NCBI RefSeq assembly: GCF_001546115.1
Contig: NZ_KQ955208.1
Location: 624,929-688,928 of the forward strand
Direction: 5' to 3'
DNA from: Paracoccus aminovorans
Lineage (GTDB): Bacteria; Pseudomonadota; Alphaproteobacteria; Rhodobacterales; Rhodobacteraceae
Length of the DNA: 64,000 nt
Shown here: positions 29,870-36,968 of the stretch, one piece after another
Numbering within the stretch: position 1 is the stretch's first letter
How the letters are laid out: the number at the start of each line of letters is the position of its first letter
Program-made: the position numbers and the translations under genes
The notes under the pieces: generated by a model
Database searches by the model: none
What the model was told of the DNA's origin: nothing
The model's input: the letters and a program-made list of their open reading frames with translations, nothing else

Positions 29870-29883
29870 TTGATCTGCGTCAA
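29870..29883 (-). promoter_or_regulatory. FNR/FnrP box upstream of ccoG
   Basis: TTGATCTGCGTCAA matches TTGAT-N4-ATCAA at all but one position. If FNR sits at -41.5, transcription of ccoGHIS would start near 29835, about 19 bases before the ATG. Confidence 0.85.
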
Positions 29884-33799: not shown

Positions 33800-33813
33800 T
33801 TGATCTGCATCAA
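33800..33813. promoter_or_regulatory. perfect FNR/FnrP box between ccoN and usp
   Basis: TTGATCTGCATCAA is an exact palindromic match to the consensus. At -41.5 it would start ccoNOQP near 33765 (74-base leader), or the usp gene near 33848 (about 96-base leader). It may serve one or both divergent genes. Confidence 0.92.
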
Positions 33814-34815: not shown

Positions 34816-35565
34816 TCAGCTCAGCGGACCGCCGTCCGAATCGTCGCCGCTTTCCAGGACCAGGCGCTGGAACGAGGGCACGATGACCCGGCGCTTGCCG
34901 TCAAGCTCGATCACGCCCTCGCGCTTCAGGGCGCTCATCTGCCGGCTGACGGTCTCCAGCGTCAGCCCCAGGTAATCGGCCATGGCCTCGCGGGTCAGCG
35001 GCAGTTCGATGGCGATGCGCCCCTCGGGCCGGCGCTTGATCAGCGCCGCCTCGCGCCGCGCCAGGATCACCAGCAGCGAGGCGATCTTCTCGCGCGCCGA
35101 CTTGCGGCCCAGCAGCAAGAGCCAGTCGCGGGCGGCGTCAAGCTCGTCCAGCGTCATCTCCAGCAGCCGGCCGGCGATGCGCGGAATGTCGATCAGCAGC
35201 TTTTCGAAGGGCTTGCGGCGAAAGCAGCACAAGAGCAGGTCGCTGGTCGCGGTCACGGTATAAGCCGCGACGTCGCGCCCAGGCCGGCCCAGGAAATCGC
35301 TGGGCAGCAGAAGCCCCACCATCTGCGTGCGGCCATCCTCGAGCTGCTGGGTCAGCCCGGCCATGCCGGACACCACGGAACCCACGAAATCCAGCCGGTC
35401 GCCGGCCCAGACCACGACCTGCCCGGCCTCGAAGCGGCGATAGTATTTCATGCTCTCCAGCTCGGAAAGCTCGTCGCCGCCGCAATGCGAACATACCGCC
35501 CGTTCCTTGATCGGGCAGATGTGGCAGGGCTGCTGCGTCGCAACAAGGGCGGCGTCGTGTGGCAT
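34816..35565 (-). CDS. fnrP: FNR-type oxygen-sensing transcription regulator FnrP
   Basis: A 249-residue Crp/FNR-family activator. Four N-terminal cysteines C14, C17, C25 and C28 plus a CC pair at 113-114 can supply the ligands of an oxygen-labile [4Fe-4S] cluster. The DNA-binding helix has ETVSR at 204-208, the FNR specificity residues that read TTGAT. It controls cbb3 oxidase and, in Paracoccus, other microaerobic genes. The ATG giving MPHDAALV is preferred; a longer reading from TTG at 35580 would translate through the FNR box. Confidence 0.96.
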   Translation of the reverse strand: MPHDAALVATQQPCHICPIKERAVCSHCGGDELSELESMKYYRRFEAGQVVVWAGDRLDFVGSVVSGMAGLTQQLEDGRTQMVGLLLPSDFLGRPGRDVAAYTVTATSDLLLCCFRRKPFEKLLIDIPRIAGRLLEMTLDELDAARDWLLLLGRKSAREKIASLLVILARREAALIKRRPEGRIAIELPLTREAMADYLGLTLETVSRQMSALKREGVIELDGKRRVIVPSFQRLVLESGDDSDGGPLS

Positions 35566-35566
35566 G

Positions 35567-35580
35567 TTGATCTGGGTCAA
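35567..35580. promoter_or_regulatory. FNR/FnrP box between fnrP and hemN
   Basis: TTGATCTGGGTCAA matches 13 of 14 palindromic consensus positions counted as TTGAT-N4-ATCAA with G for A. It begins 2 bases upstream of the fnrP ATG and ends 35 bases before the hemN ATG, so it suits repression of fnrP as well as control of hemN. Confidence 0.82.
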
Positions 35581-35615
35581 TGTCCTGGCGCGTGTTCTGC
35601 TGCAAGGATAGCGTC

Positions 35616-36968
35616 ATGACACAGCAATCGCAACTTGAACGCCTGGGACTGTTTGACGCGCGGGTCCCGCGCTATACCAGCTACCCCACGGCACCCCATT
35701 TCACCCCCGCCGTGAACGGGGCCGAATTCGGCCGCTGGCTGGATGCGATTCCCGAAGGCGCGGCGATCTCGCTCTATATGCATGTGCCGTTCTGCCGGCG
35801 GCTGTGCTGGTTCTGCGCCTGCCGCACCCAGGGCACGCAATCGGATGCGCCGGTGCGCGCCTATGTCCAGGCGCTGCTGACCGAGCTCGAGACGCTGCGC
35901 GCCGCGCTGCCTCGCGGCGTGCGGCTGTCGCGGCTGCATTGGGGCGGCGGCACGCCGACGCTGATGCAGCCCGACATGATGCGCGACCTGGCCCAGGCCG
36001 TCCGCGCCGCCTTCCCGCTGGCCGAAGGCGCCGAATTCTCGGTCGAGATCGACCCGAACGAGATCGACGAGCCCCGCATGGACGCCCTGGCCGAATCGGG
36101 CCTGACCCGGGCCTCGATCGGGGTGCAGGACTTCGACCCCGAGATCCAGCGCATCATCGGCCGCGAGCAGAGCTTCGAGCTGACCAAGCGTGCCGTGGAC
36201 ATGATCCGCGACCGCGGCGTCGCCAGCCTGAATGCCGATATCCTCTATGGCCTGCCCGAGCAGGATCCGCGCCGCATCGCCGAATCGGTGCAGAAGCTCC
36301 TGGCGCTGTCGCCGGACCGGGTGGCGCTCTACGGCTATGCGCATGTGCCCTGGATGGCCAAGCGCCAGGTGATGATCCCCTCGGAATCGCTGCCGGACCC
36401 GCATGGCCGGCTCAAGCTCTTCGAGACCGCCCGGGCGCTGTTCCTGGCCGACGGCTATGACGAGATCGGCATCGACCATTTCGCCCGCCCCGGCGACGGG
36501 CTGGCCACGGCGCAAAAGGCCGGGCTGCTGCGGCGCAACTTCCAGGGCTATACCGACGACCGGGCCGAGGTGCTGGTCGGGCTTGGCGCCTCGTCGATCT
36601 CGCGCTTCCCGCAGGGCTATGCCCAGAACGCGCCGGCGACCGGCGCCTATCTGGGCCATGTCCGCGCCGGCCGCTTCGCCACCACGCGCGGCCATGCCTT
36701 CAGCGCCGAGGACCGCTGGCGCGCCCGCATGATCGAGGCGCTGATGTGCGACTTCCGCATCGACGCACAGGAATTCGCGGCCCACGGCTTCGACGCCGAC
36801 AGCCTCGCCCGCCTCTTCGCCCCGGTGGCCGAGCGTTTCGGCGAGATGGTCGAATGCGACGCGACCGGCCTTCGCATCACGCCCGAGGGCCGGCCGCTGA
36901 CGCGGATGATCGCCCGCATGTTCGACGGCTACGACATGGCCGCCTCGGGCCATTCCGGCGCCATCTGA
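35616..36968 (+). CDS. hemN: oxygen-independent coproporphyrinogen III oxidase
   Basis: A 450-residue radical SAM enzyme that converts coproporphyrinogen III to protoporphyrinogen IX without O2. The cluster motif is C60-x3-C64-x2-C67 followed by C69 (CRRLCWFCAC), which is the true HemN signature and not that of the HemW chaperone. The opening DARVPRYTSYPTAPHF is diagnostic. ATG follows an AAGGA site. It is divergent from fnrP and shares its FNR box. Low-oxygen induction would match the demand of cbb3 oxidase for heme. Confidence 0.97.
   Translation: MTQQSQLERLGLFDARVPRYTSYPTAPHFTPAVNGAEFGRWLDAIPEGAAISLYMHVPFCRRLCWFCACRTQGTQSDAPVRAYVQALLTELETLRAALPRGVRLSRLHWGGGTPTLMQPDMMRDLAQAVRAAFPLAEGAEFSVEIDPNEIDEPRMDALAESGLTRASIGVQDFDPEIQRIIGREQSFELTKRAVDMIRDRGVASLNADILYGLPEQDPRRIAESVQKLLALSPDRVALYGYAHVPWMAKRQVMIPSESLPDPHGRLKLFETARALFLADGYDEIGIDHFARPGDGLATAQKAGLLRRNFQGYTDDRAEVLVGLGASSISRFPQGYAQNAPATGAYLGHVRAGRFATTRGHAFSAEDRWRARMIEALMCDFRIDAQEFAAHGFDADSLARLFAPVAERFGEMVECDATGLRITPEGRPLTRMIARMFDGYDMAASGHSGAI

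Follow-up and report, generated by a model that had tools for sequence, protein, structure and literature searches.

The oxygen-sensor gene fnrP and the heme gene hemN lie head to head in the 64,000-nucleotide stretch of Paracoccus aminovorans DNA analysed here (hereafter the window), with one FNR box between their start codons, and comparison with related loci makes it probable that two opposite-facing promoters are interlocked there, as placed below, within about 70 bp. We have high confidence, on the basis of the sequence comparisons, that the promoter of fnrP is embedded in the start region of hemN, and equally high confidence that the hemN message would be leaderless or nearly so. The features discussed are as follows, in window coordinates.

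34816..35565, minus strand: fnrP, oxygen sensor of the FnrL family (open reading frame)
35566..35598, minus strand: predicted 33-nt fnrP leader, with the FNR box at about +19 to +32
35567..35580, no strand assigned: FNR box TTGATCTGGGTCAA, common to hemN and fnrP (9 of 10 consensus bases)
35598, minus strand: predicted fnrP transcription start, an A preceded by C
35603..35608, plus strand: predicted -10 element of a class II hemN promoter (CAAGGA, which includes AAGGA), box centre +29.5 to +34.5
35605..35610, minus strand: predicted fnrP -10 element TATCCT
35615..35616, plus strand: predicted hemN transcription start, with a leader of 0–1 nt
35616..36968, plus strand: hemN, oxygen-independent coproporphyrinogen III oxidase
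35628..35633, minus strand: predicted fnrP -35 element TTGCGA, within hemN codons 5–6

Locus, FNR box and comparison sets

The FnrP protein matched the FnrL equivalog NCBIfam NF045989 (E 8.1e-127; 421.5 bits against a cut-off of 300) and the HemN protein matched TIGR00538 above its cut-off (E 3.3e-114), in agreement with the identities that had been proposed for the two genes. The top FnrP relatives in named genomes were Paracoccus species, with 91% identity at best (among the best 80 of 546 listed). The fnrP start codon is an ATG at 35565–35563 on the minus strand, and that of hemN is the ATG at 35616. An in-frame ATG at 35580 was considered as the hemN start, but the alignment of relatives begins, from residue 1, at 35616; a TTG at 35580 was considered as the fnrP start, but some of the relatives do not have it in frame (L001, L003, L005 and L015 are examples). 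The fnrP ATG has no ribosome site nearby: the FNR box occupies that place and an AGGA lies about 17 bases off (35563–35600). The translation start of fnrP may be inefficient or unusual.

The box is centred on 35573.5, which is 42.5 bp away from the start codon of hemN; a single base (35566) separates it from the fnrP ATG. The sequence and position given for the box in the original prediction were correct, as was its arithmetic that a class II start at -41.5 would fall at 35615. Genome-wide, 17 places match the strict pattern TTGAYNNNNRTCAA and 3 match a backwards control pattern, which argues that the box is more than a chance match; 3 of the 17 places fall within the window. An additional box upstream of hemN had been raised as contrary evidence; a scan of the 150 bases in front of the window's hemN ATG revealed none with at least 8 of 10 consensus bases. 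Among the 15 of the 17 genomic places that were fetched, three have an ATG 40.5–43.5 from the centre in either direction (L230, which is hemN, L231 and L232).

Two further boxes in the window offer points of comparison. The box at 29870–29883 lies by a minus-strand neighbour gene with TATACC near the class II distance; this gene, with a leader and an AGGAG ribosome site, contrasts with hemN inside one genome. A perfect box at 33800–33813 is situated between divergent ccoN and a gene positioned like uspA of R. sphaeroides, and is a further shared divergent site; an NCBIfam search with the product of the latter gene gave no match.

Two sets of relatives were compared. The first was drawn from the best 80 of 546 FnrL relatives listed from named genomes; 78 of these 80 have a hemN start divergent beside fnrL and, together with the window, gave 79 starts, with L025 and L031, which have no hemN start, left out. 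The second comprised 150 evenly drawn genomes of the family, 121 of which had a strong hemN match, one being the window's own. The remaining 120 genomes yielded 136 hemN starts, around each of which 1.2 kb was taken (two stretches being shorter); fnrL is divergent next door in 112 of these and not in 24. Four starts without an ATG near the aligned position (L201, L215, L220 and L225) were dropped and ten were shifted to the next in-frame ATG, leaving 132 usable starts, 111 adjacent to fnrL and 21 non-adjacent. The union of the two sets minus eight duplicates contains 182 fnrL-adjacent and 21 non-adjacent hemN starts.

The box itself is asymmetric (35567–35582): in the first set (best 80 of 546), the fifth base is T in the TTGAT half in 76 of 79 starts and the GTCAA half is present in 64 of 79, and G occupies the second base past the box in 72 of 79, the window having A-T over part of that place.

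The predicted hemN promoter and start

The box centre lies 40.5–43.5 bp from the hemN ATG at 171 of the 182 distinct fnrL-adjacent starts. The 79 starts of the first set (best 80 of 546) divide into distances of 40.5 (3), 41.5 (21), 42.5 (46) and 43.5 (9); the distance is kept there although the sequence that separates the box from the -10 shows little conservation, and the hemN start codon is ATG in all 79. Counted from the box, 123 of 171 starts have A at centre+30.5 and 93 have T at centre+29.5. These correspond to positions -11 and -12 of a class II promoter and therefore point to a start within about 2 nt of the ATG. For distances of 41.5–43.5 the predicted start is at the ATG or 0–2 nt before it, and the 5 of 171 starts at a distance of 40.5 would require a start at -40.5. 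In 65 of 79 starts of the first set (best 80 of 546), a C or T precedes the ATG, which suits a transcription start at A. In the window, A at 35604 fits the class II element, but 35603 is C, and CAAGGA is a weak -10. T at -7 is usually absent from the -10 elements of Alphaproteobacteria (PMC8407463).

Given that a TA at -7/-6 and a CAA at hemN codon 6 accompany many of these starts (see below), it is relevant that 26 box-bearing starts have neither; T is present at centre+29.5 in 15 of the 26 and A at centre+30.5 in 22, and in these the putative class II -10 stands alone. A single TAANNNTA as the hemN -10 was considered and rejected: its TA half keeps its distance to the ATG, and the T-A pair follows the box where the reverse promoter is absent. 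In the mixed set, the TAA half of TAANNNTA fits alignment to the ATG and alignment to the box about equally well.

Copies of hemN that do not adjoin fnrL have a box at 41.5 (12 starts) or 42.5 (4), that is in 16 of 21, with A at -11 in 11 of the 12 at 41.5. As these copies keep the box at such distances, the promoter geometry appears to be tied to the FNR box and not to the neighbour gene, and they also look leaderless. Their boxes read TTGATNNNNCGCAA in 11 of 16; TTGCGcaggATCAA, the reverse of TTGATNNNNCGCAA, is a published FnrL site of R. sphaeroides hemN, listed with a plus sign (PMC2908626 Table 2; PMC4634722 Table 2). The aligned rows of this group (L162–L183) mostly show TTGATNNNNCGCAA boxes at 41.5/42.5 together with CATA at -12 to -9.

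The alternative is that the hemN mRNA has a leader, being initiated upstream of the box or inside fnrP, that AAGGA is its ribosome site and that the box does not act in the class II position for hemN. We regard this as quite improbable. The AAGGA pointed out in the original prediction is indeed present at 35604–35608, 7 bases before the ATG, with a weak pairing to the anti-Shine-Dalgarno sequence of -3.8 kcal/mol, and an aerobic start farther upstream is compatible with the sequence. AAGGA as a conserved Shine-Dalgarno sequence was nevertheless rejected, because the stretch is not kept as a ribosome site in relatives, where it falls in the -10 of the hemN promoter, whereas box distance and class II -10 are conserved. 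Ribosome sites were, in contrast, found in relatives without the box: pairing of -3.8 kcal/mol or better was reached by 9 of the 11 adjacent starts of the second set that lack the box, compared with 13 of the 100 that have it (Mann-Whitney p 5.7e-6, a value that ignores relatedness and is optimistic, given that several of the eleven box-less starts may be one clade). These eleven, of the 111 usable adjacent starts of the second set, have no box at this distance; one of them, L107, has a box at 69.5. HemN or HemZ is also activated by FnrL in relatives (PMC2908626, PMC5398030).

The window itself is among the 13 of 79 starts of the first set (best 80 of 546) that reach -3.8 kcal/mol, by virtue of AAGGA, and its pairing is about equal to that of the weaker sites of box-less relatives, so that the window alone would not settle leaderlessness. 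For the non-adjacent box-bearing copies, pairing of -3.8 kcal/mol or better was found in 5 of 16 when the wide interval -20 to -3 was considered and in 1 of 16 in the narrow interval -14 to -5; the pairing in these copies would thus mostly be too distant from the ATG. The almost leaderless hemN message envisaged in the original prediction therefore gains support from the kept box-to-ATG distance, the matching class II -10 and the lack of a conserved ribosome site, the start itself being predicted.

Predicted promoter elements of fnrP within the start region of hemN

On the fnrP strand, the window reads TTGCGA-N17-TATCCT (35633–35605), that is, a TTG -35, a 17-bp spacer and a TANNNT -10. In surveyed bacteria the commonest spacer is 17 bp and the commonest distance from -10 to start is 6 bp (PMC8407463); the predicted fnrP start at 35598 lies 6 bp past the -10. 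Among the 79 starts of the first set (best 80 of 546), T-7 and A-6 upstream of hemN are each fixed relative to the ATG in 75, compared with 47 and 48 relative to the box, and TTG occurs exactly 17 bp upstream of TANNNT in 74. The complete TTG-N17-TANNNT was present at 113 of 182 adjacent and at 0 of 21 non-adjacent hemN starts. A role of the TA at -7/-6 as a stop codon was rejected, position -5 being any base.

Read on the hemN strand, the TTG of the predicted fnrP -35 becomes the Gln codon at position 6. Glutamine at this codon is encoded by CAA in 146 of 146 cases and never by CAG in the combined sets, and the other hemN Gln codons of the first set (best 80 of 546) are CAG in 1073 and CAA in 321 of 1394 cases. 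TA and CAA occur together: 69 of the 100 box-bearing adjacent starts of the second set have both, 1 has TA only, 8 have CAA only and 22 have neither (Fisher p 1.7e-14, which ignores relatedness). A tree of the 182 FnrL proteins implied 17 changes of TA and 15 of CAA; well-supported independent pairs on this tree numbered 5 and 3, with none in the opposite direction, too few for significance. Among the adjacent starts, 34 of 182 have neither TA nor CAA, 13 of 182 have only one of them and 11 of 182 have no box in place, which indicates that the interlock is common but not universal.

It could be argued that the TA at -7/-6 and the CAA at codon 6 serve expression of hemN, as an AT-rich start or a signal for leaderless translation, and do not belong to a promoter of fnrP, a reading that we consider unlikely. 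Codon 4 (35625–35627 in the window), which sits just downstream of the predicted fnrP -35, has A or T as its third base in 77 of 79 relatives of the first set (best 80 of 546), in genes otherwise GC-rich there, and Gln at this codon is CAA in 10 of 10 cases; part of the codon-6 bias may therefore be an effect of the start region. Gln at codon 3 is, however, CAG in 18 of 20 cases of the same set (best 80 of 546), and the non-adjacent hemN starts do not have TA in 21 of 21 cases or CAA in 20 of 21. The elements are, moreover, retained in front of fnrL at two loci without an intact hemN, which we regard as the most telling evidence. No hemN match was found in locus L025, a metagenome contig, and in L031 (P. 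sediminis) the hemN beside fnrL looks decayed, an internal piece alone matching. In both loci TTG-N17-TANNNT precedes the FNR box by 24 bp, a gap identical to that of the window; the search for the elements in these loci allowed spacers of 16–18 bp, and the equal 24-bp gap was noticed afterwards and is not an independent prediction. Their retention in L025 and L031 speaks for TTG and TANNNT being elements of fnrL. In L031, the fnrL promoter elements still stand in what were the first codons of hemN.

A model of the interlocked promoters

The two predicted -10 elements overlap on opposite strands (35603–35608, plus; 35605–35610, minus), and the predicted starts are 17–18 bp apart. What the comparisons show is a conserved arrangement of sequence elements, from which the start sites, leaderless translation, mutual exclusion and the sign of fnrP control are inferred. 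In the forward direction, FnrP on the box at about -41.5/-42.5 would act as a class II activator of the weak -10, with transcription of hemN starting at 35615/35616. In the reverse direction, a sigma-70 type promoter, TTGCGA, 17 bp, TATCCT, would start fnrP transcription at about 35598. Given the overlap of the -10 elements, RNA polymerase should not be able to occupy both directions together. In the presence of oxygen, the fnrP promoter would be free. Without oxygen, active FnrP would pull the polymerase to hemN and would occupy bases 19–32 of the fnrP transcription unit, such that hemN would rise and fnrP would probably be held down; bound FnrP may also block elongation of fnrP transcripts.

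The weakest step of this model is the negative feedback of FnrP on its own gene, toward which we lean only modestly. The proposal that the box can block fnrP stands insofar as the box may oppose fnrP transcription, but apparently not by covering the predicted fnrP promoter, which spans the hemN start codon (35633–35605): the box centre follows the predicted fnrP start by about 25 bp, which makes competition at the -10 or a roadblock more likely. It is also possible, though in our estimate the less expected outcome, that both promoters are real and repression of fnrP by FnrP does not occur, with a neutral box at +19 to +32 or even with fnrP raised at low oxygen. The published signs of fnrL autoregulation conflict and agree with the model in part only. 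In two Rhodobacter species fnrL is listed as activated by FnrL (PMC4634722 Table 2), and fnrL of D. shibae, called autoregulated without a sign being given in the passage concerned, is induced on becoming anaerobic (PMC5398030), both of which favour an absence of repression. In R. sphaeroides, in contrast, ChIP-chip analysis assigned one sigma-70-bound box to fnrL with a minus and to hemZ with a plus sign, fnrL being decreased by FnrL binding (PMC2908626 and its Table 2), and strong activation of one of two overlapping promoters in E. coli tends to repress the other (PMC12825309).

ChIP-seq confirmed the FnrL sites of R. sphaeroides hemN and hemZ (PMC4263372), and HemN of D. shibae (Dshi_0659, numbered next to FnrL, Dshi_0660) is activated by FnrL (PMC5398030). 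The heme genes of R. capsulatus are described as not being direct targets, with the possible exception of hemH (PMC4634722).

At the R. capsulatus locus (L017), we found the box 42.5 from hemN. L150, which we take to be the R. sphaeroides genome, has the class II geometry (41.5, with TAGCGA at -12 to -7) but neither TA nor CAA, and hence no embedded promoter, so that opposite signs for fnrL and hemZ there would not depend on the interlock. For the model in its widest form, a lock retained in much of the family in which the -35 of the sensor gene in codons 5–6 of the heme gene fixes CAA, and the sensor sets the direction of the polymerase, turning leaderless hemN on and itself down, we see about even chances.

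The arrangement resembles several known systems. Class II FNR- and CRP-dependent promoters likewise combine a single FNR box near -41.5 with a -10 spaced to match; here, unlike in these promoters, the predicted hemN start coincides with the start codon and the -10 region would also serve a promoter that faces the other way. In E. coli, bidirectional promoters (PMC12825309) have overlapping -10 elements and opposite starts, most commonly 18 bp apart, compared with the 17–18 bp predicted here, and one direction, when substantially activated, can repress the other. Unlike in the E. coli promoters as described there, the two directions here have separate second elements, an FNR box in one and a gene-internal -35 in the other, and one of the two genes encodes the regulator itself. 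Leaderless mRNA with no Shine-Dalgarno sequence has been mapped in a related bacterium for the acuR-acuI-dddL operon of R. sphaeroides, although control there is TetR-type repression by AcuR and not, as predicted here, activation by FNR (PMC3017554).

The fnrL/hemZ site of R. sphaeroides concerns the same gene pair with a common box, opposite signs and bound sigma-70; start sites, leaderlessness and a promoter inside hemZ are not discussed in the section of that report on this site (PMC2908626). A reconstruction of the FnrN/FixK regulon in Alphaproteobacteria names hemN and fnrN itself as FnrN targets, with no mention of promoter geometry in the passages concerned (PMC4999443). A literature search by title, with subscription papers mostly outside its reach, returned none that announced either leaderlessness of hemN or the location of an fnrL/fnrP promoter within this gene. 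The ingredients are each known, and their combination is not announced in the literature searched.

The model makes base-level predictions for two start sites; public start-site data exist for R. sphaeroides (GEO GSE150944, named in PMC7471390). It offers a neighbour's promoter as an explanation for extreme synonymous-codon constraint in an enzyme gene, and it supplies a case from nature, widely retained, of an activator that could orient polymerase where promoters overlap. A further implication is that in many relatives an anaerobic heme enzyme would be made from a leaderless mRNA, with output that would depend on leaderless translation.
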